DNA of 64,000 nucleotides from Nocardioides sp. IC4_145 (GTDB lineage Bacteria > Actinomycetota > Actinomycetes > Propionibacteriales > Nocardioidaceae), in assembly GCF_011250565.1 (NCBI RefSeq), contig NZ_JAANMS010000010.1, positions 31,200-95,199 on the forward strand, read 5' to 3'. Position numbers and translations under genes: made by a program. The notes beneath the pieces were generated by a model. That model worked only from the letters and a program-made list of their open reading frames with translations. It did not search any database and had not been told where the DNA came from. This document shows positions 35,007 to 48,857 of this stretch, in pieces. Every line of letters starts with the position of its first letter. Positions within the stretch are counted from its first letter, which is position 1.

Positions 35007-35458
35007 GACTCGCTTCCCGGCGGTGGGGCGCTGGCGGGTTCCATGACGTCCAGCATCCCAGAACGACGCAACTCCGGCTCGAGACCCCGGGCCCGACGGG
35101 TGTGTCCGCGGCGCTCGACGAGCAGCAGCACGAAGGCCCCGAGGCCGGAGACGAGCTGGGCGACGCCGGCCCACGGACCGCCGGGCAGCCACGACCAGGC
35201 CGGCCAGATCCACAGCAGGCCGGCGAGGGCGAGGACGAGGGTGCTGCCGATGCTCAGGGCCGACCGGACCGGGCTGCTGACCGCGTGCCGGCCGGCGACC
35301 GCGCGGGCGCGGCGCAGCTGCCGGTCCGCCCAGTCGTACCGCTCGGCGAGGACCACGAGACCAGCCACGAGCAGCAGCAGCCCCGGGCCGGGCAGCGGGA
35401 GCAGCACCAGGCCGGCGACGACCAGGACCCAGCCCACCGGTTCCACGAGCACCCGCAC
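35003..35458 (-). CDS. PGPGW-type small membrane protein, copy 1 of a tandem pair
   Basis: A 151-residue protein homologous to the next gene: VGWVLVVAGLVLLPLPGPGLLLL and VLAERYDWADRQLRRA align with the same blocks there, and both share QLVSGLGAFVLL/QIVSGLVALALI near the end. This points to a tandem gene duplication. Start at GTG 35458. A CAGCATCCCAG segment at 35051-35061 inside its 3' end matches half of the palindromic repeat family seen at 8275 and 20635, probably by chance or as a repeat remnant. Confidence 0.72.
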   Translation of the reverse strand: MRVLVEPVGWVLVVAGLVLLPLPGPGLLLLVAGLVVLAERYDWADRQLRRARAVAGRHAVSSPVRSALSIGSTLVLALAGLLWIWPAWSWLPGGPWAGVAQLVSGLGAFVLLLVERRGHTRRARGLEPELRRSGMLDVMEPASAPPPGSES

Positions 35459-35523
35459 CGGGCCGGTTGTACCGATCCCGGCCGAACCCCGGGTGAATGC
35501 GCGGCCTCGCCCAGCCGGCTGAC

Positions 35524-35567
35524 GGTTGTCAGCCGGTTGTCAGCCGGTTGTCAGCCGGTTGTCAGCC
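35524..35567. repeat. Four 11-bp tandem repeats covering the stop codon of the SnoaL-like gene
   Basis: The unit GGTTGTCAGCC occurs four times in perfect tandem, with a decayed copy before it. On the minus strand each contains TGA, at 35529, 35540, 35551 and 35562. The innermost is the genuine stop codon. The 11-base period places stops in all three frames. The array sits upstream of the PGPGW pair. Confidence 0.8.
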
Positions 35568-36071
35568 GGCCGTTGGGCTCCCGCCGTACGTCGCGACGTA
35601 CGCCCGTCCCTCGTCGTCGAGCCGGCCGTGCGCCTCGGCGATCGCCGCCCAGCGCAGCGTCGTCCGCAGGAACCGCAGCGGGTTGTAGACGTCCTCCTCG
35701 CGCGAGAACAGGCCGTCGCCGGCGTAGGTCATGATCGTGAGGTTCGACTCGGAGTGCTGCGAGCCGTCGCCGGGGTCGGGCATCGGGTTTCCGACCTCGC
35801 AGATGAGCCTCGAGCGCTCGAGGTCGACGGTCTGCCAGGCGATGGGGAAGCCGGTCATCAGCCGGCCGGGGAAGCTGGTCATCGTCCTGACCGACCACCG
35901 GCGGATCTCCTCGCGACCGCGGAAGGTGCCGTAGGCGTGCTCCACGTACGTCGCGTCCTCGGTGAACAGGTCGGCGTAGCCGTGCCAGTCGCCGCTCGCG
36001 GTGAAGCCGGCGACCTGCTGGTGGAAGCCGGCGTAGGCCTCGGTGATCTCCTCGGCGCTGAACCTGGGCAT
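35562..36071 (-). CDS. SnoaL/NTF2-like protein at the end of the Pst operon
   Basis: A 169-residue protein with the NTF2-like cone fold pattern: EEITEAYAGFHQQVAGFTASGDW, then HGYADLFTEDATYVEHAYGTFRG and later WQTVDLERSRLICEV. SnoaL-like members are cyclases, isomerases or binding proteins; no specific catalytic residues can be assigned. It has no signal peptide. The ATG shares its A with the stop codon of the transglycosylase gene (TGATG), so it is the last coupled gene of the phosphate operon. Why a small-molecule-type protein sits there is unclear. Confidence 0.75.
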   Translation of the reverse strand: MPRFSAEEITEAYAGFHQQVAGFTASGDWHGYADLFTEDATYVEHAYGTFRGREEIRRWSVRTMTSFPGRLMTGFPIAWQTVDLERSRLICEVGNPMPDPGDGSQHSESNLTIMTYAGDGLFSREEDVYNPLRFLRTTLRWAAIAEAHGRLDDEGRAYVATYGGSPTAG

Positions 36072-36862
36072 CAGGCCGTCCTCTCGGCGTAGGCGGTGGC
36101 GGCGGCGTGGACGGCGGCGACGTACTCCTCGCTGTGGTTGTAGGAGAAGACCGCCGCCGACCACCCGGCACCGGTGGTGAGGTCGTGGCCGTCGGCGCAC
36201 AGGTAGCGCGCCGCGGCGAGGGCGGCGTCGTCGAGGTCGTTGGGGTCCTCCGTGCCGTCGCCGTCGCCGTCGGCGGACCACCGGTCCCAGGACGACGGGA
36301 TGAACTGGAGCGGTCCGACGGCGTGGTCCCAGTCGGGGTTGCCGTGCCAGCGGCTGGACCGCGGCGTGGCGGGGATCGCGGCGAAGTCGCGGCCGTCGAG
36401 GGCCGGGCCGAGGATCGGCTCGGAGGAGTGGCCGTCCTCGCCGATCGTGCGGCCGTCGATGGTGCCGTGCTGGGACTCGACCCAGCCGATGCCGGCGAGC
36501 GTGGTCCACCCGAGCGCGCAGCCCTCGGGCGCCATGAGGCTCGCCCGGCCGTACGCCGTCAGGGCCGGCAGCGGGATGCCCGCGCGCTCGGCGGTGGAGG
36601 CGGCCCAGGCCGGGTCGACGACGGGTACGCCGCCGGCGGCCGTGCGAGCGGCGCCGCGCGCGGTCCCCGCTGAGCGCTCCGGGGCGAGCACGGCCTCGGG
36701 AGCCGCCGTTGCTCCGCCCGGTGACCGGGTGCTCGCGTCCGCGGGCCGGTTGCTGGCCGGGTCGAGCACCCGCTGCTGGGCCCAGAACGCGGTGCCGGAG
36801 AGCACCGCGAGGGCGAGCAGGAACCCGAGGGCCGCGGGCAGCGCGCGGACGCGACCGGTCAT
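36071..36862 (-). CDS. Membrane-anchored lytic transglycosylase (MltB/SLT type)
   Basis: The 263-residue protein has an N-terminal membrane helix (VRALPAALGFLLALAVLSGTA), an Ala/Pro/Thr-rich spacer to about residue 85, and a lysozyme-like domain. The catalytic glutamate lies in GIGWVESQHGTI, followed by HAVGPLQFIPSSWDRW and DGDGDGTEDPNDLDDAALAAARYL, a calcium-site-like loop typical of actinobacterial MltB-like enzymes. It cleaves peptidoglycan glycan strands non-hydrolytically. Its ATG overlaps the pstB stop (ATGA), so it belongs to the Pst operon. I infer it makes room in the wall for the large anchored proteins encoded upstream. Confidence 0.85.
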   Translation of the reverse strand: MTGRVRALPAALGFLLALAVLSGTAFWAQQRVLDPASNRPADASTRSPGGATAAPEAVLAPERSAGTARGAARTAAGGVPVVDPAWAASTAERAGIPLPALTAYGRASLMAPEGCALGWTTLAGIGWVESQHGTIDGRTIGEDGHSSEPILGPALDGRDFAAIPATPRSSRWHGNPDWDHAVGPLQFIPSSWDRWSADGDGDGTEDPNDLDDAALAAARYLCADGHDLTTGAGWSAAVFSYNHSEEYVAAVHAAATAYAERTA

Positions 36863-37710
36863 CCGAACCGGCCGTTGACGTAGTCGCTCGTGCGCTGGTC
36901 GCGCGGAGAGCCGAACATCGCGCGGGTGTCGCCGTGCTCGACGATGACGCCGGGCGTGCCGTGCGAGGCGAGGAAGAAGGCGCACTGCGTCGAGACGCGT
37001 GCGGCCTGCTGCATGTTGTGCGTGACGATGACGATGGTGACCTCCCGGGCGAGCTCCAGCATGGTCTCCTCGATGACGCGTGTCGAGGTCGGGTCCAGCG
37101 CGGAGCACGGCTCGTCCATCAGCAGCACCCGCGGCTTGACCGCGAGCGAGCGGGCGATGCACAGCCGTTGCTGCTGACCGCCGGACAGGCCGCCGCCGGG
37201 GGCGTCGAGGCGGTCGCGCACCTCGGTCCACAGCCCGGCCTTGGTCAGGCAGGACTCGACGAGCTCCTCCTTGACCGACCGCGAGGCGCGCGTGCCCGTG
37301 AGGCGCAGGCCCGCGAGGACGTTCTCCCGGATCGACATCGCGGGGAAGGGGTTCGGCTTCTGGAACACCATCCCGATCGCCCGCCGGGCGTCGATGAGCC
37401 GCCGGTCGGGGTCGTAGACGTCCTGGCCGTCCAGCAGCACCTCGCCGGCCAGGCGGGCCGAGGGCACCAGCTCGTGCATCCGGTTGAGGATGCGCAGGAA
37501 CGTGGACTTGCCGCAGCCCGAGGGCCCGATGAGCGCGGTGATCCCACCCGCCGGCATGGTCAGGGAGACCCGGTCGAGCACCTTCCGCTCGCCGAACCAG
37601 GCGGTGATGTCGCGTGCCTCGAGCTCGGCGAGCGGGGCGCCGGGCGCGGGCGGGCCGGCGGGGACGGGCGGCAGGACGGCGGTCTCGTCGGTCGCGGCGG
37701 CGTGGGTCAT
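36859..37710 (-). CDS. pstB: Phosphate ABC transporter ATP-binding protein
   Basis: A 283-residue ABC ATPase. Walker A is IGPSGCGKSTFLR, Q-loop FQKPNPFPAMSIREN, signature LSGGQQQRLCIARSL, Walker B VLLMDEPCSALDPTSTRV and the switch histidine in VIVTHNMQQAARV. The QKPNPFPMS-like Q-loop and DEPCSALDP are PstB hallmarks. The first 25 residues are an Ala/Pro-rich extension. ATG 37710 follows GAGGAG. It energises PstCA, although here it is separated from pstC/pstA by four genes of surface proteins, an unusual order. Confidence 0.95.
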   Translation of the reverse strand: MTHAAATDETAVLPPVPAGPPAPGAPLAELEARDITAWFGERKVLDRVSLTMPAGGITALIGPSGCGKSTFLRILNRMHELVPSARLAGEVLLDGQDVYDPDRRLIDARRAIGMVFQKPNPFPAMSIRENVLAGLRLTGTRASRSVKEELVESCLTKAGLWTEVRDRLDAPGGGLSGGQQQRLCIARSLAVKPRVLLMDEPCSALDPTSTRVIEETMLELAREVTIVIVTHNMQQAARVSTQCAFFLASHGTPGVIVEHGDTRAMFGSPRDQRTSDYVNGRFG

Positions 37711-37791
37711 GGTCTGGTCTCCTCGCTGGTCGACCACGCGGCGCCGGGCGGCCGTCGTACGACGACCGCCCGGTGCTGGTGGTGCGGGGGG

Positions 37792-39336
37792 TTACTTCTG
37801 GGTGATGGTGAAGGACTTGCTGGAGCCGACGGCGACGCCGTTGCCGCCCCAGACCGCACGCAGGACGTGCTTGCCGCGCGGGAGCTTCGGCAGCTTCACG
37901 GTGGCCTTGCCGCTCTTCAGCTTGGCGGAGGCCAGGGTCGTGGCGCCCTTCTTGATCGTCACCTTGCCGGCGGCGGTGCTGCTGACGCCGGTGAGGGTGA
38001 CGGTGACGGTGCCCTTGGCCTTCTTCCCCTTCTTGACGGTGGTCGGGAAGGTGGTGGCGACCGCCGAGCCGGCCTTGACGACGACCGAGGTGGTCGCGGT
38101 CGAGCCCTCGAACGCCGAGCCCTGCGCCGGCACGAACTCCGCGGCGAAGCTGCGGCTGCCGAGGGGGAGGCCGGTCGCGGTGTACGTCGCACGACCCGAC
38201 ACGAGCGGGACGCCGGTGGCCAGGGTGGTGCCACCGGAGGTGAAGGTCACGGTTCCCTGGGGGGCGGTGCTGCCGGAGACCTGGGCGACCAGTGTGGCCG
38301 CCTTCGCCTTGGCGCTCGAGCCGCTCAGCGCCAGCGTGGTCTCCACGGCCTCGTTGAGGGTGAAGTTGCTGGTGGCGCTCTGGGTGGCCTGGCCGCAGGC
38401 GCCGCCGCGGGCCGGGGTGGCCAGCTGCTTGAAGCCGGCGCGCTCGATCAGCCCACGGGCGTCGGAGGAGCACAGGTAGCCGTTCTCGCCGAAGAGGCCC
38501 TGCACGGCTGCGGTGCCGAGGTCCGCGCCGCGCACGACGTTGTAGAGGGCGCGGTCGGCGCGGAAGCCGGACTGCAGGCGCAGGGTCTTCCCGAGCAGGC
38601 CGGCGCGGCCCTCGGAGAAGGGCGCCACGGCGTTCGGGTCGCCCTTGACCGCGGTGTCGTCGTGCTCCTGCACCTCGGCCACGGACTTGGCGAGGGTCAC
38701 CGCGACGCCGCCGTTGGCGGCCTGCAGCTGGGAGGTGAAGAAGCTGCGGGTGCCCGAGCCGGCCTGCGGGATGAGCGGCTTGATGATGCCGTCCTTGCCG
38801 CCGACCTGCGACCAGTTGGTGACGGTCCCGTCGTAGATGTCGACGATCTGGTCCTTGGTCAGCGACGCGGGCGCGTTCGACGCCGTGTTGCCGGAGACCG
38901 CCATGACCAGGGTGTCGAGGGCGAACGGGAAGTTCTGCAGGCCGGCCTGGACCTCGGCGGTCGAGGGGCCGGAGGAGGACCGGGCGAAGTCGATGTCGGC
39001 GTTGTTGCCGGCGCCGTAGAGCAGCGCCTTGCCCGCACCGGAGCCGTTGGGCCGCTTGATCGCGCCGGAGGGCAGCGTGATGTCCCCGCCGCCGGTCGCG
39101 GCGAAGGACGCCAGGCGGGCCGCCGGCGACGTGGCGTTCCACCCGTCGGCGAGCAGCCTCATGGCGTGCTGGCTGGTGTCGGAGCCGACGCCGACCAGGT
39201 CCGCGGCGACCGGCGTGAACGTCGTGTCGTCGGGGTCCACGGCAGCGGTCGCCGGGGTGGCCGTGACCAGGAGGGTCGAGCCGGTGAGGGCCGCGACCGC
39301 GAGGCCGGCGAGGGACGTGCGTACAGACATCTCCAC
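37792..39336 (-). CDS. Secreted PstS-like phosphate-binding protein with Ig-like repeats
   Basis: A 514-residue protein with a signal peptide (LAGLAVAALTGSTLLVTATPATA). Residues 35-340 resemble PstS: VGVGSDTSQ, DIDFARSSSGPST, PLIPQAGSGTRSFFTSQL with the S-G-T-R phosphate contact, and a typical hinge layout. The C-terminal 170 residues are two Ig-like beta-sandwiches (GTVTFTSGGTTLATG, KGTVTVTLTGVSSTAAGKVT) ending KSFTITQK, of the kind found on wall-exposed proteins. No lipobox. Start either GTG 39336 or ATG 39330; neither has a good ribosome binding site. It is the third binding-protein-like product of the operon. Confidence 0.82.
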   Translation of the reverse strand: MEMSVRTSLAGLAVAALTGSTLLVTATPATAAVDPDDTTFTPVAADLVGVGSDTSQHAMRLLADGWNATSPAARLASFAATGGGDITLPSGAIKRPNGSGAGKALLYGAGNNADIDFARSSSGPSTAEVQAGLQNFPFALDTLVMAVSGNTASNAPASLTKDQIVDIYDGTVTNWSQVGGKDGIIKPLIPQAGSGTRSFFTSQLQAANGGVAVTLAKSVAEVQEHDDTAVKGDPNAVAPFSEGRAGLLGKTLRLQSGFRADRALYNVVRGADLGTAAVQGLFGENGYLCSSDARGLIERAGFKQLATPARGGACGQATQSATSNFTLNEAVETTLALSGSSAKAKAATLVAQVSGSTAPQGTVTFTSGGTTLATGVPLVSGRATYTATGLPLGSRSFAAEFVPAQGSAFEGSTATTSVVVKAGSAVATTFPTTVKKGKKAKGTVTVTLTGVSSTAAGKVTIKKGATTLASAKLKSGKATVKLPKLPRGKHVLRAVWGGNGVAVGSSKSFTITQK

Positions 39337-39382
39337 ATCGCTTTCTTGAGGTGGTGCAGGTGGTGGTGGGTGGGTGGATGGG

Positions 39383-40333
39383 TCAGAGGACGTTCGGCAG
39401 GAGCCGGACGGCCACGTCGGTGGTCGCCCACGACACGGCGAGGGCGAGGGGGCAGGCGACGAGCCAGACGACGGCGGTCGACCACCGCTGGCGGGCGGCG
39501 AGGACGCCGAGGACGAGCGCGACGAGCACCGCCAGGTGCAGCGCGAGGAGCGGGAGCGCGGCGGGGTCGCTGGCGAGCGCCCGTTCGGAGTCCGGCACCG
39601 CCGTGGGCCGTCCCGGCGGCGCGGGGAAGCCCTCGGCCGCCTCGGCGTCGAGGTAGACGGCGTCGCGCGGACGGACCGCCCCGAACCGGCCGTCCCCCTC
39701 GGCCGTCACGAGCGTGAGGCGGGCGGCGCCGGCCGCTGCCGGGGGCGGCAGCGGGTCACCGGCGCGCCGCAGGCCGATGACGTCGAACGTCACCGAGCCC
39801 TGCGCCATGGTCACCTCGACGGCGTCACCGACGCGCAGCTCCGGCAGGTCCCGGAAGGGCCCGCCGTACGTCGCCGCGCGGCCGTAGACCACCGAGGTGC
39901 CGACCTGCCCGGGGAGCACGGTGTCGCGCCGGTGACCCGGGCCGGCGGTCGTGTCGCCGGACGCGGTCCCCTCGATCACGACCTCCTCGAGCCCGAGCCG
40001 CGGGATGCGCACCAGCGCGACGGGATCGCCGGCCGGCACGACCGGGCCGACGGGCGCGGTGGCGGCGGCGAGCTGGGTGCGGAGGTCCCGGTAGAGCAGC
40101 TCCTGGGCGCGCTCGTGGGTGAGGGAGCCGAGGAACAGCAGCTGGGCCGCGGGCCACAGGCACACCAGCGCGAGCATCGTCAGGGCCGAGGCGAGCGGGG
40201 CGACGCGCTCGTCGGGCCGCGTCGCCGGTCTCGGCGCGCGACGAGGTGCGCGCGGTCGCGACGGGGCGGTCGTCGGACCGGCCGTCGGACCGGTCGTCGG
40301 GGCGGTCGTCGGGCCGACCGTGGGCGCGCTCAT
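39383..40333 (-). CDS. Sortase-fold membrane protein lacking the catalytic His and Cys (pseudo-sortase)
   Basis: A 316-residue protein: cytoplasmic Pro/Thr/Arg-rich residues 1-45, membrane helix 47-72, sortase-like domain about 100-225, then two C-terminal membrane helices (259-280 and 285-303). The domain aligns with class E/F sortases: LVRIPRLGLEEVVIEG, GPGHRRDTVLPGQVGTSVV, YGGPFRDLPELRVGDAVEV. The position of the catalytic histidine (GHR in active enzymes) is GRA, with R152, and the catalytic cysteine position (TLTTC) is TLVTA, with A211. Transpeptidation should therefore be impossible. ATG overlaps the stop of the preceding gene. I infer a scaffold or recruiting role for the surface proteins of this operon. 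Confidence 0.82.
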   Translation of the reverse strand: MSAPTVGPTTAPTTGPTAGPTTAPSRPRAPRRAPRPATRPDERVAPLASALTMLALVCLWPAAQLLFLGSLTHERAQELLYRDLRTQLAAATAPVGPVVPAGDPVALVRIPRLGLEEVVIEGTASGDTTAGPGHRRDTVLPGQVGTSVVYGRAATYGGPFRDLPELRVGDAVEVTMAQGSVTFDVIGLRRAGDPLPPPAAAGAARLTLVTAEGDGRFGAVRPRDAVYLDAEAAEGFPAPPGRPTAVPDSERALASDPAALPLLALHLAVLVALVLGVLAARQRWSTAVVWLVACPLALAVSWATTDVAVRLLPNVL

Positions 40334-42951
40334 CGCGGCACCCGCACGAAGAAGCGCAGCCCGCCCGCGCCCGCCACGGCCAGGAGCCCGACGAGCACCA
40401 GCGCGGGCAGGAGGCCCCCGCCGAGGCGGGAGGAGACCGGCTCCGTCCCCGGCATGGCCGGGACGGCGGTCGGCTGGGCTTCCACGTCGGCGCCCGGCGC
40501 GGCCTCCTCGGCCGGGAGCTCGGCGGAGGGCACGTCGCCGCCCGGCACGCCCCCGCCGCTGCCGCCGGCCGGCCCGCCGGAGGTGTCGCCACCGGGGCCG
40601 CCGGGGCCTCCGCCGCCCGGGCCGTCCCCGCCGGCCGGGGCACGCTGGGCGGCCACGGCGTCGGCGACGTCCTGGGCGGAGGCGAAGAGCTTCGCGGTGA
40701 CGCCGGTCCGGCGGATCGGGAGGAAGCCCTCGGGCAGCTCGCCGTTGCCGCTCCCGCGCCGCTGGCCCTCGGTGGTCGACACGCGGATGAACTGCGCGAC
40801 CTTCGCCGCGTCGGCCTTCGGGAGGTTCCGCAGGCGGGCGGCGGTGTAGACGACCATCGTGCCGGGGTAGGCCGACCCGGCCTTGCGGACGTCGGCCTGG
40901 TCGAGCACGAACGGTGCGCGGGGTCGCTCCTGGCGGGCCAGCCGGACGGCGGCCCCGAGCGAGGCGTCGCTCGGCGCGACGTACGTCCCCGGCCGGGTCT
41001 GCAGCGCCGCCGAGCGCAGGCCGTAGCGCGCGGCGTCGCCCAGGCTCGTCACGCCCAGCAGGAACCGCGACCCGAAGGACTGCCGGTCGACCCGGCCGAG
41101 CTTGTACTGCTGGGTCGAGGCGTCGAGCTCGCAGCGGGTCTGGACGTTGGGCCAGGCGTCGAGCAGGGCCTCGGAGATCTTGCGGAGGGCCGTGACCGGC
41201 GCGGCCAGCTGGGTGAAGTAGACGGCCGGGTTCTCCTTGCGGCAGGTGTTCTCCGTCGCCGGCACGTAGGTGTCGAGCAGCGGCCACTCCGAGCGGGGCA
41301 GCTCGATGTCCTCGTACTCGGGGTTGACCTTCATCCCCCACGGGTCGGCCTTGCCGGACACGAAGGCGCGGGCGTCCGGGTCGGCGGCGATGTACGCCGT
41401 GAGCTGCTCGACGACGTCGGAGGACTCCGAGAGCGACAGGAGCGTCGCGCCGGCCTCCTGGGTGGTGGTGCTGAGCCCGGGGTTCAGCTCCTGGAACTCG
41501 GGGTCGTTCATGATCGCGAGCGGGTTGCCGGCCATGCCGGGGTGTCCCCGGCCGAGGTCGGAGCCGAGGTAGCTCTGGGTGAGGAGCTTGGCCAGGAGCC
41601 GCGCGTTCAATCTCAGCCGGGTCCGCTCGCCGCCGTTGTCGGGCTCGTCGACCACGTAGGCGATGGAGAAGCCGGTCACCGCGGTCGGCGCGTAGCCGAC
41701 CGGGTCGCTGCCGCGACGCTCGTGCTCCGAGGAGACCGCGGCGGCCACGCCGCCGCCAGAGGACATCAGTGCGAAGCCGGCCTCGTCGGACATCTGGTTG
41801 AGCTGGAACTTGAACCGGTCCTCGGCCAGGCAGTACGCCGGCGCCCACTGGGTGGCGGCCTGGGCCAGGAGCTCCGAGCCGTAGAAGCCCGTCGGCGGAC
41901 GGGGGTCGCGGATGTCGCAGGTGTCCGGGGGCAGGCCGAAGGTGATCGGGATCGTGAAGCGGTTGCGCCAGTTCGACTCCGACCACCACAGCGCCGGGCC
42001 CACGGCCTGGTCGATGCCCTCGCCGCTGAAGTTGCTGGAGCCGGGGGCGAAGCGACCGCCCTTGCGGCACGCCTGGTCCCCGGCGGTGGGCGGCTGGGAC
42101 GGCGCGTCGCAGCTCAGCCCGACGATCGGGATGACGACGACGGAGCAGGCGACCCGGTGGTTGCAGCCCAGGGACTCGTTCTCGGTCTCGCTGCGGACCT
42201 CGAGCTGCACGCTGCCGGTGCCGTTCGCCTCGGTGAACGCCGCGATCTCGGCCGGCGGGAAGGCCGCGCCGACGGCCGCCTCGGGCGCCATGTGCGCGGC
42301 GTCGCAGGCCAGGTGGGTCCGCCCACCGCGCGCCACGAACGGCGTCAGGCGGGTGGCGTAGGGCTCGATGTCCGCGGTCGGGCACTCCTGCGCGCCGGGG
42401 AACGGCGTGACGCCGGACGTGCGCTGCTTGGCCGCGTCGTCGGCGTACAGGTCGTGGCGCCAGGTGGCCTCGCCCTCCGAGCGGCTCACCTGCGAGCGCT
42501 GGGCGACCGAGGCGGTCCAGCACGTCTCCGGGCGGACCCGCTTGGCAACGGGGACCGACGCCCCGTCGACGCCGCGGCACTGCAGGACGACGACGGGGTA
42601 CTCCTGCGCCAGGCCGTTCTCGCCGTAGGGGTTGCTGGCACGACCGCCGCTCGGCTGGGCGCCCTTCCAGCTGATCCGGATCCGCTGCCGGCCGCGCAGG
42701 TTCTCGGTCTTGTCGGCGGTGACGGTCACCCGGTAGGTGGGGAAGGAGTACGTCGTGCCGTCGGCGTTCGCGAAGACGCGGGTCAGCTCCCTGGTCGCCC
42801 GGTAGCCGTCGTCACCCTCGGCGGCGGCCCGAGCCGGTGCGGCCTGCGCCGGTGCGGCCTGCGCCGGGCCCGCGACCTCCGCCGGCACCGCGAGCCCGAG
42901 TGCCGCGATCCCCAGCGCGGCCAGCGCGGCGAGGGCTCGGCGCGCGCTCAC
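40330..42951 (-). CDS. Large secreted, C-terminally anchored protein of the Pst operon
   Basis: An 873-residue protein starting at GTG 42951. It has a signal peptide (ALAALAALGIAALGLAVPA), a long extracellular region with many cysteines (VLQCRG, PETCWT, QECPTAD, LSCDAP, DTCDIRD, TRCELD), and a Gly/Pro-rich linker near residues 735-790. The end is MPGTE, about nine residues, a hydrophobic helix LLPALVLVGLLAVAGAGG and RFFVRVPR, resembling a sorting signal without a true LPxTG. Parts such as YPGTMVVYTAARLRNLPKAD recall periplasmic-binding-protein C-lobes, so a divergent substrate-binding fold is plausible. Four-base overlaps on both sides tie it to pstS and the pseudo-sortase. No precise function known to me. 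Confidence 0.75.
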   Translation of the reverse strand: MSARRALAALAALGIAALGLAVPAEVAGPAQAAPAQAAPARAAAEGDDGYRATRELTRVFANADGTTYSFPTYRVTVTADKTENLRGRQRIRISWKGAQPSGGRASNPYGENGLAQEYPVVVLQCRGVDGASVPVAKRVRPETCWTASVAQRSQVSRSEGEATWRHDLYADDAAKQRTSGVTPFPGAQECPTADIEPYATRLTPFVARGGRTHLACDAAHMAPEAAVGAAFPPAEIAAFTEANGTGSVQLEVRSETENESLGCNHRVACSVVVIPIVGLSCDAPSQPPTAGDQACRKGGRFAPGSSNFSGEGIDQAVGPALWWSESNWRNRFTIPITFGLPPDTCDIRDPRPPTGFYGSELLAQAATQWAPAYCLAEDRFKFQLNQMSDEAGFALMSSGGGVAAAVSSEHERRGSDPVGYAPTAVTGFSIAYVVDEPDNGGERTRLRLNARLLAKLLTQSYLGSDLGRGHPGMAGNPLAIMNDPEFQELNPGLSTTTQEAGATLLSLSESSDVVEQLTAYIAADPDARAFVSGKADPWGMKVNPEYEDIELPRSEWPLLDTYVPATENTCRKENPAVYFTQLAAPVTALRKISEALLDAWPNVQTRCELDASTQQYKLGRVDRQSFGSRFLLGVTSLGDAARYGLRSAALQTRPGTYVAPSDASLGAAVRLARQERPRAPFVLDQADVRKAGSAYPGTMVVYTAARLRNLPKADAAKVAQFIRVSTTEGQRRGSGNGELPEGFLPIRRTGVTAKLFASAQDVADAVAAQRAPAGGDGPGGGGPGGPGGDTSGGPAGGSGGGVPGGDVPSAELPAEEAAPGADVEAQPTAVPAMPGTEPVSSRLGGGLLPALVLVGLLAVAGAGGLRFFVRVPR

Positions 42952-44609
42952 CGCACGCTCCGGCGGCGCTTGAGCGAGGCGACGTACAGCCCGGGGAGCA
43001 GGACCAGCGCGATGAGCTCGACGGCGGCCAGCCAGCCGAACGCCTGGGTGTCGGCCGCCCGGCCGGCGACCAGCTCCGTGGGGTTCGCGTAGATCGCAGC
43101 ACCGTCCGCGGAGGTGGCCGCGACGTCGCCGCCGACCACCGCGCCGGTCTCGGGGTCGATCACCGGCGCGGCGTCACCGCCGGGCGCTCCGACGCTGCCA
43201 CCGGCCGTGCCTCCGGCGCCCCCGGCTCCTCCCCCGCCCGCGGTGCCGCCGCCCGCGGCGGGGCCGCCGCCCTCGCCGCCGCCCGCGGCCCCGGGGTCGT
43301 CGGTCGACGGGGTGCCCGTGCCGGTCGCGGTGCCGCAGGGGCCGGCTCCGACCTTGTCGCACGCCGCCGGCTGCGGCGCGATCTGGGCCAGCTTGTTGCC
43401 GGCGAGGTTCTTGCCGTCGAAGGTGGGGTTGTTGCAGGACTTCACGTCGCGCGAGGTGAGGTCGACCGCGCTGTCGGCCTGCTTGAGCTTGGCGATCTGC
43501 TGGAAGCCCGCCTGCACGAGGTTGAGCGGCAGGGGCGAGTAGCCGTACGGACCGGCCTTGGACTGGCCCGAGCACAGCGAGTAGTACAGGAAGTCGGCGA
43601 GCGTCTGCCGCTTCGCGGTCGACATGCGCGGGTCGTTCCGGCCGGTCGGGATGACCATGTAGCTGTACGAGGAGAGCGGGTAGGCGCGCGGGTCGGTCGC
43701 GGTGTAGACGCCGTCGAGGACCTGGGTCAGGTAGAGCTGGGAGCTCTTGTCCTGGTTGATGCGCGCCTTGGTCAGCGCGACCGCCACGTTGTACTGCGTC
43801 GGCTCGACGTAGTAGCCGCCCTTGTTGAGGACCTTGACGACCGGGTAGTCCTTGTTGACCGGGTAGGAGTACTCGACGTAGCCGATGCTCCCGTTGCCCG
43901 CGAAGCCGGCGATGGTGTTCATGACCTGGTCCGAGCCGGCCTGGCCGACCGCGCGGCCCTTGCGCGGGTAGTAGGACGTCAGCCCGGAGCGGCCGAAGAA
44001 CGGCCGCCAGATCGAGGGGTACTGGTGGTCCATCCAGGTCGTGAACTGCGCGGTGGTGCCCGACCCGTCCGACCGGACGACCGGGGTGATCGGCAGCGAC
44101 GGGAACGACCGGCCGTTGTTGTCCTCGGCGATCGCCGGGTCGTTCCAGTTGGTGATCTGGTTGGTGAAGATCTTGGCGATCGTCTCGCCCGACAGCCGCA
44201 GGTTGCGCACCAGCTGGTCCCCGACCTTGAGCTGGTAGGTGAAGGCCGTCCCGCCCGCCACGACCGGCAGGTAGGCGAACTCCCGCCCGTTGCTGGTGTC
44301 GGCGTTGCCCGCCTCGTCGACGCCCTGGTACGGGATCTCGGAGATGGCGAAGTCGGTGCTCGCCTGAGCGAAGTCCTTGCGGCCCTTGGACGAGCCGCCG
44401 CCGGTGTAGACGACCTTCATGCCGTTGCTGTCGACGTCGGAGATCCACTGCTGGACGATCAGCTCCGACCAGGTGGAGCCGGTGCCCTCGATCTGGGCGT
44501 AGGCCGCGGCGGAGGCGGTGCCGGGCAGGGTGGCCACGGAGCCGAGGGCCAGGAGGACGGCGACCCACGTGCGGGTCCAGCGCGGGATCGCGCGACGAGC
44601 GGTGTTCAA
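42948..44609 (-). CDS. pstS: Phosphate-binding protein PstS with a C-terminal membrane anchor
   Basis: A 553-residue protein starting with TTG at 44609 (AGGAG nine bases upstream), overlapping the pstA stop as TTGA. After a signal peptide, residues 35-400 are a PstS fold: IEGTGSTWSELIVQQW, VVYTGGGSSKGRKDFA, TDFAISEIPY, VRSDGSGTTAQFTTWM and GSIGYVEYSYP. Then comes a roughly 100-residue Gly/Ala-rich linker and a C-terminal helix WLAAVELIALVLLPGLYVA followed by SLKRRRSVR. Ordinary PstS in Gram-positives is held by an N-terminal lipid; here there is no lipobox, and the anchor is at the C-terminus. Confidence 0.9.
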   Translation of the reverse strand: MNTARRAIPRWTRTWVAVLLALGSVATLPGTASAAAYAQIEGTGSTWSELIVQQWISDVDSNGMKVVYTGGGSSKGRKDFAQASTDFAISEIPYQGVDEAGNADTSNGREFAYLPVVAGGTAFTYQLKVGDQLVRNLRLSGETIAKIFTNQITNWNDPAIAEDNNGRSFPSLPITPVVRSDGSGTTAQFTTWMDHQYPSIWRPFFGRSGLTSYYPRKGRAVGQAGSDQVMNTIAGFAGNGSIGYVEYSYPVNKDYPVVKVLNKGGYYVEPTQYNVAVALTKARINQDKSSQLYLTQVLDGVYTATDPRAYPLSSYSYMVIPTGRNDPRMSTAKRQTLADFLYYSLCSGQSKAGPYGYSPLPLNLVQAGFQQIAKLKQADSAVDLTSRDVKSCNNPTFDGKNLAGNKLAQIAPQPAACDKVGAGPCGTATGTGTPSTDDPGAAGGGEGGGPAAGGGTAGGGGAGGAGGTAGGSVGAPGGDAAPVIDPETGAVVGGDVAATSADGAAIYANPTELVAGRAADTQAFGWLAAVELIALVLLPGLYVASLKRRRSVR

Positions 44610-45874
44610 CGGTGCTCCTGGGAGATGGACGGGGCCTGGCGCAGGCGGGTGAGGACGCGGGACCGGAGCGAGGACTTGGTGCCACGCGGCCGGGCGAGCA
44701 GGCGCGCGACCACGAACAGCAGCAGCACCAGGCCGAGCAGCACCGCGGCAGCGCCGTACGCCCGGGTGATCGCGGTGGGCTCGCCGGAGCGCACCAGCGA
44801 GAAGATGTAGAGCGGCAGGGAGTTCATCGCGCCGTCGGTGGGGTCGGTGACCAGGAAGGCCGCCGCGCCCGACGTCAGCAGCACCGGGCTGGTCTCGCCG
44901 ATGCCGCGCGCGACGCCGAGGATGACGGCGGTCGCCAGGCCCGGGCGGGCGGTGGGCAGCACGACGCACCAGACCGTCCGCCAGCGGCTGGCACCCAGCG
45001 CCAGGCTCGCCTCCCGCAGGCCCGACGGCACGACCCGCAGCACGACGTCGGCGGCGCGGGCGATGATCGGGAGCATCATCACCGCGATCGCGAGCGCGGC
45101 GGCCAACCCCGAGCGGGGGTAGCCGAGCGTGCGGATGAGCACGGTGTAGATGAACAGGCCGGCCACGATCGAGGGCAGCGCGGTCATGGCCTCGACCACG
45201 GTGCGCACGACCGTGGCGAACCGGCCACCCACCTCGGTCATGAACACCGCGGTGCCGATGCCGAGCGGCAGGGTGATCACCAGGGCGATCCCGAGCTGGA
45301 TCAGCGAGCCGACGATCGCGTGGGCGACGCCGCCGCGGTCGAAGGCGTCCTTGGGGCCGACCCCGGCCATGTCGTCGACGAGGAAGTTGAGGTGGGTGAG
45401 CGGGCGCCAGCCCTGCGAGACCACGTCGTAGACGGTGGTCACCAGGACGCCGGCGACGACCAGGGCGCCACCGGTGACGACCGCCTCCGCGAGCCGGTCG
45501 CGGACCTCCGTCGATCCGCCCGTCATGGCGGCCGCGGTGGCGGTCAGGGCGAGGCCGAGCCCGAACCACACGACGACGAACCAGGGCAGGCCGGCCATCG
45601 GCAGCAGCCGCTGGGTCACCAGCCAGGCCAGGGCGAGCGCCGCGACCCACGGGCCGACGCGGAGGAACCGCTCGTCGGGGCTGAGCCGCCCCAGGCTGGC
45701 CCGCGGCACGGCCGGCGCGACGGCGTCGTCGTACGTCGGCAGGTGGGTCGTGCCGGCGTACGCCCCGCCCGCGGTCATCGGCGTCGACCCGATGTGGGTG
45801 CCGGGGATGGGCTCTGCCGGGGCTGCCGGGGCTGCCGGGGCTGCCGAGGTCGCCGGCTGGACGGTCGCGGTCAC
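44606..45874 (-). CDS. pstA: Phosphate ABC transporter permease PstA
   Basis: A 422-residue permease, longer than usual PstA (about 290). The N-terminal 60 residues are Ala/Pro-rich and soluble, with a 9-base DNA repeat (GGGGCTGCC) encoding AAPAAPAAP. Two extra helices near residues 78-120 precede the core. The core shows TLPLGIGTAVFMTEV, MTALPSIVAGLFIYTVLI and the coupling loop ASLALGASRWRTVWCVVLP (EAA motif). It starts with GTG 45874 overlapping the pstC stop. With PstC it forms the channel through which phosphate from PstS enters. Confidence 0.94.
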   Translation of the reverse strand: MTATVQPATSAAPAAPAAPAEPIPGTHIGSTPMTAGGAYAGTTHLPTYDDAVAPAVPRASLGRLSPDERFLRVGPWVAALALAWLVTQRLLPMAGLPWFVVVWFGLGLALTATAAAMTGGSTEVRDRLAEAVVTGGALVVAGVLVTTVYDVVSQGWRPLTHLNFLVDDMAGVGPKDAFDRGGVAHAIVGSLIQLGIALVITLPLGIGTAVFMTEVGGRFATVVRTVVEAMTALPSIVAGLFIYTVLIRTLGYPRSGLAAALAIAVMMLPIIARAADVVLRVVPSGLREASLALGASRWRTVWCVVLPTARPGLATAVILGVARGIGETSPVLLTSGAAAFLVTDPTDGAMNSLPLYIFSLVRSGEPTAITRAYGAAAVLLGLVLLLFVVARLLARPRGTKSSLRSRVLTRLRQAPSISQEHR

Positions 45875-46881
45875 GCGTCGGTCCCCGCTCCGGAGCGGCT
45901 GCGCGCGACCACGACGGCCGCCAGCGTGTTGACGACCAGGGTGATGAGGAAGAGCACGAAGCCGGCGGCGAGGAGGGCGGAGAGCTGCGCGTCGCTCGCC
46001 TCGCCGAAGCGCCCGGCGATCAGGGCGCTGACGGTGCTGGTCCCGATCTCCAGGACGTTCCACTTCAGCTCGAACGCCGGGGAGACGATGAGGAAGACCG
46101 CGATGGTCTCGCCCAGTGCCCGGCCCAGGCCGAGCATCGTGCCACCGATGATGCCGCCGCGACCGAAGGGCAGGACGACCGTGCGGATCATCCCCCAGCG
46201 GGTGGAGCCCAGCGCCAGCGCGGCCTCCTTCTCCCCCGGTGGGGTCTGGGAGAAGACCTGGCGCATCACCGCGCACGCCATCGGCATCACCATCGCCGCC
46301 ACCGCGATGCCGGCGCAGAACGCGCTGGCGGTGTAGCGGCTGGCGTCCCAGACCGCGGCGTCCGGGTCCGAGCCGCGGACGTCGAAGAAGGGGATCCACC
46401 CGAGGTTGCGGTGCAGCCACAGCGCGAGCTCGGCGGCGTGCGGCATCACCAGCGAGAAGCCCCAGAGGCCGTAGACGATCGAGGGGATCGCGGCCATGAG
46501 GTCGACGAGCGAGACCAGGGTCGCGCGGATCCGGGCCGGTGCGTACTCGCTGATGTAGAGCGCCGTCAGCAGGGCGAGGGGGAAGGCGAAGATCATGGCG
46601 ACGAGCGCGACCGCGGCCGTGCCGGCGAGGACGGCCGCGATGCCGACGACGTCGGCCTCCGGCTGCCACTGGACCTCGGTGAAGAAGGACCAGCCGTAGC
46701 GGTCGAGGGTCGGGTACGCCTGCCAGGCGAGGAACACACCGACGCCGCCGGTCACGACGAGCACCGAGGCACCGACGGCGCGGCTCGCGTGCTCGAAGAC
46801 CGCGTCCGCTCCGGTGGAACGGCGGGAGATGCGGCGGGGACGGACGTCGTCCGGCGCGCCGGGCATCGGGAGGGTGGTCAC
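45871..46881 (-). CDS. pstC: Phosphate ABC transporter permease PstC
   Basis: A 336-residue inner-membrane permease with about six helices. FAFPLALLTALYISEYAPARI, MAAIPSIVYGLWGF and the coupling loop KEAALALGSTRWGMIRTVVLPFGRGGIIGG are PstC signatures, as is RALGETIAVFLI. It starts with GTG at 46881, the first gene of the operon, about 80 bases downstream of the PHO box. The stop overlaps pstA by four bases. No phoU or two-component genes are in this window. Confidence 0.95.
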   Translation of the reverse strand: MTTLPMPGAPDDVRPRRISRRSTGADAVFEHASRAVGASVLVVTGGVGVFLAWQAYPTLDRYGWSFFTEVQWQPEADVVGIAAVLAGTAAVALVAMIFAFPLALLTALYISEYAPARIRATLVSLVDLMAAIPSIVYGLWGFSLVMPHAAELALWLHRNLGWIPFFDVRGSDPDAAVWDASRYTASAFCAGIAVAAMVMPMACAVMRQVFSQTPPGEKEAALALGSTRWGMIRTVVLPFGRGGIIGGTMLGLGRALGETIAVFLIVSPAFELKWNVLEIGTSTVSALIAGRFGEASDAQLSALLAAGFVLFLITLVVNTLAAVVVARSRSGAGTDA

Positions 46882-47183
46882 GGGTGGTCCTGCTCTGCTG
46901 GGACGCGCGGCCGGGGTGACCGCGCGGCTCGAATGCTGGAGACCACTGAGGAACGGATGCCGCTCCCCCGGTGAACGGCGGGGGAACTCGTCCGCGGCCT
47001 TTCCCGAACAGGTCAGGCGCCGCCGTCATCGCTGGTCACAACGGACTATCCGCCTTCCCCTCGGCATGGCCCGAACGGGCCAGGGGTGCCTCGGGCGACG
47101 CTGCCCGCGCCGGCCGGCGCCGCGCCCGCCCGGCGGCCGACCCGGTCGACCACTGCGTCGGCGCCGTCGGCCACCATGGGCGC
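46882..47183. other. Intergenic region between divergent pstC and FAD-dehydrogenase genes
   Basis: About 300 bases without a gene. It holds the PHO box (46964-47007) and a 16-base palindrome TGGCCCGAACGGGCCA at 47067-47082. I find no secure -10/-35 pair for either gene; CACCAT six bases before the dehydrogenase ATG is a weak candidate. Confidence 0.6.
46964..47007 (-). promoter_or_regulatory. PHO box: 11-bp direct repeats upstream of pstC
   Basis: Read on the minus strand, 47007-46964 splits into four 11-bp units: GTTCGGGAAAG, GCCGCGGACGA, GTTCCCCCGCC and GTTCACCGGGG. Three begin GTTC at the correct 11-base phase. The last contains GTTCACC, the core of the actinobacterial PhoP direct-repeat unit. 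Location 83 bases before the pstC start fits activation by PhoP during phosphate starvation. Confidence 0.75.
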
Positions 47184-48857
47184 ATGAGCGGAGCTCCGGG
47201 AGACCTGCGGGCCGACCTCGTCGTCGTGGGCGCCGGCCTCGCCGGCCTGGTGGCGGCGGCCGAGGCCGCGGACGCCGGCCGCAGCGTGCTGCTGCTGGAC
47301 CAGGAGGGCGGGCAGAACCTCGGCGGCCAGGCGTTCTGGAGCCTCGGCGGGCTCTTCCTCGTCGACAGCCCGGAGCAGCGCCGGATGGGCGTCAAGGACA
47401 GCCTCGAGCTGGCCCGGCAGGACTGGTTCGGCAGTGCGCAGTTCGACCGGCCCGAGGACCGCTGGCCGCGCGCGTGGGCGGAGGCGTACCTGCAGTTCGC
47501 GGCCGGCGAGAAGCGCTCCTGGCTGCGGCAGATGGGCCACCGCCTCTTCCCGGTCGTCGGCTGGGCCGAGCGCGGCGACGGCACGGCCGGCGGCCACGGG
47601 AACTCGGTCCCCCGCTTCCACATCACCTGGGGCACCGGCCCGGGCGTCGTCGAGCCGTTCGAGCGGCGGGTGCGCGAGCACGTCGCGGCCGGACGCATCC
47701 GGCTCGCGTTCCGCCACCGCGTCGACGGGCTGCTCGTCGAGGGCGGAGCGGCCGTCGGCGTACGCGGCTCGCTGCTGGCGCCCACCGACGTCGACCGCGG
47801 CCGCCCGAGCAGCCGCACGGTGGTCGGGGACTTCGAGGCCCACGGGTCGGCGGTCGTGGTGACGAGCGGCGGCATCGGCGGCGACCACGACCTCGTGCGC
47901 CGCAACTGGCCGGAGCGGCTCGGCACCCCGCCGAGGCGGATGGTCGCGGGCGTGCCCGCGCACGTCGACGGTCGGATGCTGCGGATCACCCAGGACGCCG
48001 GCGCGAACGTCGTCAACCCCGACCGGATGTGGCACTACGTCGAGGGCCTGCGCAACTGGGACCCGATCTGGGACAACCACGGCATCCGGATCCTGCCCGG
48101 CCCGTCGTCCCTGTGGCTCGACGCCGAGGGCAACCGGCTGCCGGCGCCGTGCTTCCCCGGCTTCGACACGCTCGGCACGCTGCGCCACCTCCGCGCGACC
48201 GGCCACGACTACTCCTGGTTCGTGCTGACCCAGCGGATCATCGAGAAGGAGTTCGCACTGTCGGGCTCCGAGCAGAACCCCGACCTCACCGGCAAGGACG
48301 TCAGGCTGCTGCTCTCGCGGGTCAAGAAGGGCGCGGCCGGACCGGTCGAGGCGTTCAAGCAGCACGGCGAGGACTTCGTCGTCGCCGACACCCTCGAGGA
48401 GCTCGTCACCGGCATGAACCGGATCGGCGACGACGACGTGCCGCCGATCGACGCCGCCCGCGTCCGCAGCATCGTCGAGGCGCGCGACCGGGAGATGGAC
48501 AACACCTTCAGCAAGGACGCGCAGGTGACCGCGATCCACGGCGCCCGGACCTTCCTCGGCGACAAGCTCATCCGCGTCGCCCGGCCGCACAAGCTGCTCG
48601 ACCGCGCCGCCGGCCCGCTCATCGCCGTGCGGCTCAACATCCTCTCCCGCAAGACCCTCGGCGGCCTCGAGACCGACCTCGACGGTCGCTGCCTGCGCGC
48701 GGACGGCACGCCGTACCCCGGCCTGTACGCCGCGGGCGAGGTCGCCGGCTTCGGCGGCGGCGGGATGATGGGCTACAACGCGCTGGAGGGGACGTTCCTC
48801 GGGGGCTGCCTCTTCTCCGGCCGCGTCGCCGGACGGGCCGCAGCCGCCGCGACGTAG
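47184..48857 (+). CDS. FAD-binding dehydrogenase (fumarate reductase/succinate dehydrogenase flavoprotein family)
   Basis: A 557-residue flavoprotein. The N-terminal dinucleotide-binding motif is VVVGAGLAGLVAAAEAADAG (residues 13-32), followed by LLLDQEGGQNLGGQAFWSLG. The C-terminal PGLYAAGEVAGFGGGGMMGYNALEGTFLGG block is the FAD ribityl-binding end. It resembles a conserved actinobacterial group (Mycobacterium Rv0785-like, from memory) related to 3-ketosteroid dehydrogenases, but the substrate is not known. ATG at 47184 has no clear ribosome binding site. The extensive upstream open frame is not conserved-looking. It is convergent with the HAD gene; a 20-bp tandem duplication fills the junction. 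Confidence 0.88.
   Translation: MSGAPGDLRADLVVVGAGLAGLVAAAEAADAGRSVLLLDQEGGQNLGGQAFWSLGGLFLVDSPEQRRMGVKDSLELARQDWFGSAQFDRPEDRWPRAWAEAYLQFAAGEKRSWLRQMGHRLFPVVGWAERGDGTAGGHGNSVPRFHITWGTGPGVVEPFERRVREHVAAGRIRLAFRHRVDGLLVEGGAAVGVRGSLLAPTDVDRGRPSSRTVVGDFEAHGSAVVVTSGGIGGDHDLVRRNWPERLGTPPRRMVAGVPAHVDGRMLRITQDAGANVVNPDRMWHYVEGLRNWDPIWDNHGIRILPGPSSLWLDAEGNRLPAPCFPGFDTLGTLRHLRATGHDYSWFVLTQRIIEKEFALSGSEQNPDLTGKDVRLLLSRVKKGAAGPVEAFKQHGEDFVVADTLEELVTGMNRIGDDDVPPIDAARVRSIVEARDREMDNTFSKDAQVTAIHGARTFLGDKLIRVARPHKLLDRAAGPLIAVRLNILSRKTLGGLETDLDGRCLRADGTPYPGLYAAGEVAGFGGGGMMGYNALEGTFLGGCLFSGRVAGRAAAAAT

Follow-up and report, generated by a model that had tools for sequence, protein, structure and literature searches.

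Textbook Pst importers have a single phosphate-binding protein, PstS, that is either soluble or anchored by a lipid. The locus studied here raises the question of why a row of pst genes would also carry two more PstS-related proteins and a relative of the sortases. It lies in a 64,000-nt stretch of Nocardioides sp. IC4_145 (contig NZ_JAANMS010000010.1, positions 31,200 to 95,199), which we call the window, and comprises nine intact genes, all on the minus strand between positions 35562 and 46881 (Table 1). These are pstC, pstA, pstS1, the gene for an 873-residue protein (p873), a sortase-like gene, pstS2, pstB, and genes for a lytic transglycosylase and a SnoaL-like protein, just as an original prediction made from the sequence alone had named them. 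The row seems to be a variant of the Pst importer containing a protein family without description. With moderate confidence, and on sequence grounds, we propose that it encodes a second phosphate-starvation Pst importer in which transmembrane tails would tether the binding proteins and a non-catalytic sortase relative would hold them.

We compared 72 loci obtained by scanning named genomes with an alignment of p873; a separate alignment combined the window with 21 of 69 loci. Most are from Nocardioides, with others from Pimelobacter, Aeromicrobium, Mumia, Janibacter, Kribbia, Cellulomonas, and metagenome-assembled genomes. The core order pstC-pstA-pstS1-p873-sortase-pstS2-pstB was observed in 56 of the 57 loci whose flanks are long enough for this comparison; the exception is L058 (Cellulomonas), in which pstB lies further off. 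A sortase-like gene stands beside p873 in 70 of 71 loci. The expectation that the inserted genes are kept with the pst genes thus holds for the anchored PstS, p873, the sortase-like protein, and PstS2, but not for the lytic transglycosylase (32/60 loci) or the SnoaL-like protein (1/60), which are lineage specific and which we dropped as core members. Beyond these loci, a protein search recovered p873 relatives from Streptomyces, Planotetraspora, and Acidimicrobiales. Of the names listed for them, most read “hypothetical protein”, with “PBP domain-containing” in some cases and “ABC-type phosphate transport system substrate-binding protein” in a few; among the 120 homologs listed, the nearest is 86% identical and named Nocardioides. 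We also inspected 16 other-family or paralogous regions (L095 to L110) picked for their p873 matches. A p873-like gene was found in 13, a sortase-like gene in 12, and both together in 10, where pst genes adjoin them in varying order.

The sortase-like protein has Arg152 and Ala211 at the columns that the catalytic His and Cys, respectively, occupy in two genuine sortases of the same genome, which bears out its earlier labeling as a pseudo-sortase. (The genuine sortases sit on other contigs, G000:C37, locus L124, and G000:C81, locus L127.) It matches sortases in the PDB with a best E value of 4.6e-17. When 69 loci were aligned with the window, the His column held Arg in 68 and Lys in 1, and the Cys column held Ala in 50, Ser in 10, Gly in 8, Val in 1, and Cys in none. 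Both residues are likewise lacking from all 12 further copies (His column, Arg in 11 and Lys in 1), half of which come from other families and half from paralogous clusters, and among three paralogs encoded directly upstream of main clusters, none has the Cys and one has the His. The catalytic Arg was not seen by eye at the expected strand in the window protein and was seen, also by eye, in L100.

A phylum search gave a match in 213 of 396 genomes. Thirty of the matching loci were fetched, of which 10 (the window's included) lack both residues and 20 are of the genuine type, with His in 17/17 and Cys in 15/15 rows having a letter there. The pseudo-sortase resembles class E sortases such as Streptomyces coelicolor SrtE1 (5cuw) in its GPGH...LPG.xG...G.xxTYGxPF motifs, and its best NCBIfam match is the class E entry NF033747, although at 61.0 bits this falls under the cut-off of 160. 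It differs from class E sortases in the replacement of His and Cys at 69/69 loci, in its extra C-terminal hydrophobic segments (by eye, one segment is N-terminal and two are C-terminal), and in the absence of Tyr after GPGH. In SrtE1, a Tyr next to His228 is proposed to recognize LAXTG (PMC5148588). Of 19 genuine rows with a letter directly behind GPGH, 14 have Tyr there; none of the 69 loci does, the residue being Arg, Leu, Gln, Lys, or Val instead, and the next position is Arg (Arg136) in 68 of the 69. Mean column identity among pseudo-sortases is 61% (n = 50, the window plus 49 of the 69 loci). In a tree of 43 sequences, 26 pseudo-sortases fall on one side of a branch with support of 95/85 (94% of 200 bootstrap trees) and 17 genuine sortases fall apart from them; the two trait columns were kept in, and L147 to L151 and duplicate copies (L128 to L134 and L136) were left out. 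The presumed loss of catalysis thus looks like an old, maintained trait rather than a product of decay.

Three proteins of the row are related to PstS. PstS1 matches solved PstS structures in the PDB by profile, and its residues at the phosphate-ligand positions of Escherichia coli PstS (T46, S73, E91, R179, S183, G184, and T185 of PstS1) are kept in 67 of 68 rows, with a gap in the other one; one row has Ser for Thr at position 46. Residue 91 is Glu in place of the canonical Asp in 67/67 rows with a letter, and this position corresponds to Asp56 of canonical PstS, which is known for phosphate discrimination. The second protein, p873, consists of a Cys-rich N-terminal domain (about residues 50 to 348), a domain at residues 349 to 768 that adopts the PstS fold in a predicted structure, a linker, and a C-terminal hydrophobic helix with a basic end. 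The AlphaFold2 model was built from 137 sequences (the window, 36 loci, and 100 proteins; mean column identity, 25%) and has a pLDDT of 89.2; a run with 22 sequences (the window and 21 of the 120 listed homologs; pLDDT, 48.2) was not used. By sequence, p873 scores 20.1 bits against TIGR00975 (cut-off, 205) and has no PDB match and no Pfam match over the cut-off, and nine further members of its family gave no match at an E value of 0.01. The RSDGSGTT phosphate loop is absent from its aligned stretch, with only SD widely kept. Mycobacterium tuberculosis PstS-1 and PstS-3 (1pc3, 7dm1, and 4lvq) are 13 to 17% identical to p873, which differs from them in lacking that loop and in having the extra Cys-rich domain of about 300 residues and a C-terminal hydrophobic tail. 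An apparent PstS1-p873 fusion in L095 was rejected as an artefact of a stop-to-stop frame. PstS2 retains SDT, S99, RSS, and SGT and has Pro190 where 1twy has a loop Arg; by eye, it has a signal peptide and no anchor, and it gave no profile match to p873.

None of the three PstS-related proteins has a Cys within its first 45 residues, and therefore none has a lipobox. After its binding domain, PstS1 continues into a Gly/Ala-rich linker with DPETG (residues 485 to 489), followed by a hydrophobic helix and a basic end. D-P-x-T-G is the sole conserved stretch of residues 431 to 512 in an alignment of 24 PstS1 sequences (the window plus 23 of 66) and occurs in 60 of 65 rows including the window, preceded by Val or Ile in 54 (L063, L064, and L072 were left out). 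It lies further upstream than the place a sorting motif takes before the helix. By eye, no xPxTG or xAxTG motif stands just before the C-terminal helix of the window's p873 or PstS1, and the wall-sorting motif [LMVIA][PA]xTG occurs near the helix in only 2 of 69 p873 tails (of 72; L002, L063, and L072 left out) and 6 of 63 PstS1 tails (of 67; L005, L063, L064, and L072 left out). The hydrophobic helix and basic end of these tails suggest membrane tethering of the binding proteins; an assembly that crosses the wall is possible.

We then considered how the row may be controlled. Genes overlap by 4 or 1 nt at 6 of the 8 junctions, confirming the earlier remark that most are start/stop overlaps; at the other two, 46 nt separate the pseudo-sortase gene from pstS2 and 81 nt separate pstS2 from pstB. 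Because of these overlaps, and because a consensus scan, the only search made, found no terminator-like site in positions 35400 to 47200, a single transcript for the whole row is likely. As defined in PMC4415409, PHO boxes are 11-nt direct repeats, GTTCACC in S. coelicolor. Upstream of pstC, GTTC units at 47009, 46987, 46976, and 46954 share one 11-nt register as in that definition, differing from it in that register units two and five are unmatched. The GTTCACC-type repeats originally noted in front of the row are therefore present as an array, but the exact heptamer occurs in it once (46970 to 46976), the other three units being GTTC only. The GTTCACC count by itself is weak evidence because 18 copies are spread over the 64-kb window (shuffle mean, 5.0), and we set it aside. 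The register is more telling across relatives: among the 63 of the 72 loci that have a pstC match and sufficient DNA in front of it (the window itself is not counted), at least two in-register GTTC units occur in 54 and at least three in 25. The corresponding figures are 54 and 2 for 3640 random windows and 8 and 0 for 828 regions upstream of other genes. Thus, the array is conserved in the ortholog group, where it provides strong comparative evidence for putative PhoP control.

The window row is an additional system, since the same 4.27-Mb genome has a separate pstS-pstC-pstA-pstB cluster on contig C31. Its PstS has a lipobox, its PstB scores 367.6 bits against TIGR00972, and two in-register units also precede its pstS. 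Like the PstSCAB systems of E. coli and Streptomyces, the window row has PstC, PstA, PstB, a PstS that retains the phosphate-ligand positions, and a PHO array in front. It differs in beginning with pstC instead of pstS, in the Asp-to-Glu change at one ligand, and in the insertion of two more PstS-related proteins and the pseudo-sortase; moreover, unlike the canonical PstS of the same genome, PstS1 ends in a hydrophobic tail and lacks a lipobox.

These observations are consistent with the following model. Under phosphate starvation, phosphorylated PhoP would bind the conserved 11-nt GTTC array and switch the row on. PstC, PstA, and PstB, whose families are clear, would form the channel and motor. 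PstS1, with its full ligand set, could swing on its long linker and deliver phosphate to PstCA, while p873, with a predicted PstS fold and no canonical loop, and PstS2, with a PBP-like domain and Ig domains, might broaden the capture zone, help to position it, or act as occupancy sensors. The groove of the pseudo-sortase would serve as a non-catalytic clamp, gripping PstS1 and p873 by their tails or linkers and so keeping the complex together; with His and Cys missing, it would hold proteins without cleaving them. The interpretation first offered, a starvation-induced surface assembly for phosphate capture, survives in its conserved inserted core and in the PHO array of the ortholog group, and not in its inclusion of the transglycosylase and SnoaL-like protein. 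A more specific version, which we consider unlikely though not negligible, makes the pseudo-sortase a peptide receptor whose groove, rendered basic by Arg152 and Arg136, clasps the [VI]DPxTG of the PstS1 linker, which resembles a sorting signal, uncut and thereby tethers the three PstS-related proteins over the importer. DPxTG is also a common beta-turn, so the motif may be only structural.

Several observations weigh against the proposed assembly. Sampling gave a p873-type match in no more than 10 of 396 genomes across Actinomycetota and, paralogs included, in 58 of 198 genomes from the family. One paralogous sortase copy, next to L011, retains the His (without the Cys). PstB and PstS1 score below the curated NCBIfam cut-offs, though they are matched over their length. 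The [LMVI]PxT pattern appears in only 36 of 69 p873 tails, and we dropped this tail motif as a universal clamp target; the clamp role itself is one we infer from the retained fold and the linkage. Among 15 pstC-upstream regions of the other-family and paralogous clusters, a single one has the array, and that one is a window-type copy; this test was confined to GTTC units in front of pstC and could have overlooked a different consensus or promoter. Phosphate control may therefore not extend to the wider family. The PstS1 ligand positions are altered in L099, L106, and L108, which are also array-less, and partly altered in L100, L103, and L104. The array and the ligand set are not strictly coupled, because L096, L097, L098, L105, and L109 are without two in-register units yet keep most or all ligand positions. 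Since the other clusters are mostly array-less and some have altered ligands, the shared assembly may not necessarily be tied to phosphate.

Could the row instead be an ordinary second Pst importer, with the pseudo-sortase and p873 as passengers left by duplication and decay and without a joint role in uptake? PstC, PstA, PstB, and PstS1 alone would be enough for a Pst importer, and the missing phosphate loop of p873 and the missing catalytic residues of the sortase fit such a view. Linkage of the two genes in 70 of 71 loci does not, nor do the single pseudo-sortase clade and the column identities of 61% (50 pseudo-sortases) and 25% (137 p873-type proteins). Decay also predicts many broken copies, whereas broken frames were seen in L063 and L072, where assembly errors are likely because several genes are broken at once. 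We judge this explanation rather improbable, and we assign a similarly low standing to the idea that the row is mainly a phosphate sensor, in which p873 and the pseudo-sortase report PstS occupancy to the PhoR system, with transport a secondary task given the canonical PstSCAB elsewhere in the genome. There is precedent for binding proteins turned into sensors with a changed site, as p873, with its predicted PstS fold, might be. However, a complete transporter with its ATPase is kept in 56 of 57 loci, the PstS1 ligand positions are intact, and Pfam and NCBIfam matches identify no phoU or phoR among the nine genes.

Two further alternatives appear very unlikely to us. The pseudo-sortase could help a genuine sortase of the same genome to attach p873 and PstS1 covalently to the wall, giving a wall-spanning assembly. 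The genome does encode two genuine sortases, and many p873 tails have the layout of a sorting signal (motif, hydrophobic stretch, and basic end), but the sorting motif itself is found in only 2/69 p873 and 6/63 PstS1 tails and the genuine sortases are encoded on other contigs. Finally, it is just as doubtful that the row serves a different oxyanion, or a phosphate ester, in place of phosphate: the Glu in 67/67 PstS1 rows, the Pro of PstS2 where 1twy has a loop Arg, and the loss of ligand positions in some paralogous clusters are what this predicts, and the remaining PstS1 ligand positions, which are intact, and the conserved PHO array of the ortholog group speak for phosphate. We therefore retain, at the strength stated above, the tethered importer with a non-catalytic sortase relative.

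Among the matches listed in a search of open-licence papers, we found none that describes this gene set or a pseudo-sortase; “pseudosortase” occurs in none of these papers, and “catalytically inactive”, “sortase”, and “pseudoenzyme” occur together in none. The row thus appears as a conserved version of Pst that has not one but three PstS-related proteins, of which two end in hydrophobic tails, plus a dedicated relative of the sortases that lacks catalytic residues. If the proposal is correct, it would give a function to the pseudo-sortase family and to more than 1000 mostly unannotated surface proteins (1148 scored p873-type matches), and it would provide a testable model of how thick-walled bacteria keep binding proteins beside a transporter. 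Were the peptide-receptor version true, the sortase fold would serve as a non-enzymatic scaffold across Actinomycetota, with LPXTG-type recognition turned into a tether.

Table 1. Features of the pst row in the window, with Pfam/NCBIfam profile matches (curated cut-offs) as the basis of gene identities.
Feature	Position	Strand	Basis and remarks
PHO-box-like array upstream of pstC	46944..47009	-	GTTC units in one 11-nt register
pstC, permease	45871..46881	-	336 aa, GTG start; TIGR02138, 245.8 bits (cut-off 196.45, over)
pstA, permease	44606..45874	-	422 aa, GTG start, 4-nt overlap with pstC; TIGR00974, 218.5 bits (cut-off 193.45, over)
PstS1, phosphate-binding-protein family	42948..44609	-	PF12849; TIGR00975, 186 bits (cut-off 205, under); PDB PstS matches
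p873, 873-residue protein	40330..42951	-	Cys-rich N-domain, predicted PstS-fold domain, linker, C-terminal hydrophobic helix and basic end
Pseudo-sortase, class-E-like sortase domain	39383..40333	-	PF04203, 48.2 bits (cut-off 26.6, over)
PstS2, PBP-like domain, then bacterial Ig-like (Big_3_5) matches	37792..39336	-	PF12849, PF16640; PDB matches
pstB, ATPase	36859..37710	-	TIGR00972, 334.3 bits (cut-off 343.2, under), full length 2-248
MltB-like lytic transglycosylase, accessory	36071..36862	-	PF13406
SnoaL-like protein	35562..36071	-	PF12680

Some loci carry additional genes around the core. Directly upstream of the main cluster, L011, L021, L023, and L029 have parts of a second, paralogous cluster, namely sortase-like, PstS2-like, or pstB genes and, in L021, also pstC, pstA, and pstS1. 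By eye, the Cellulomonas loci L058 (14590 to 18877) and L064 (15970 to 17526) have extra genes for secreted- or anchored-looking proteins between pstS2 and pstB. In the window itself, a plus-strand open frame at 46971 to 48857, flavoprotein-dehydrogenase-like by eye, is divergent to pstC, and the short intergenic region containing the PHO array is common to both; this frame may share the control of the pstC row.

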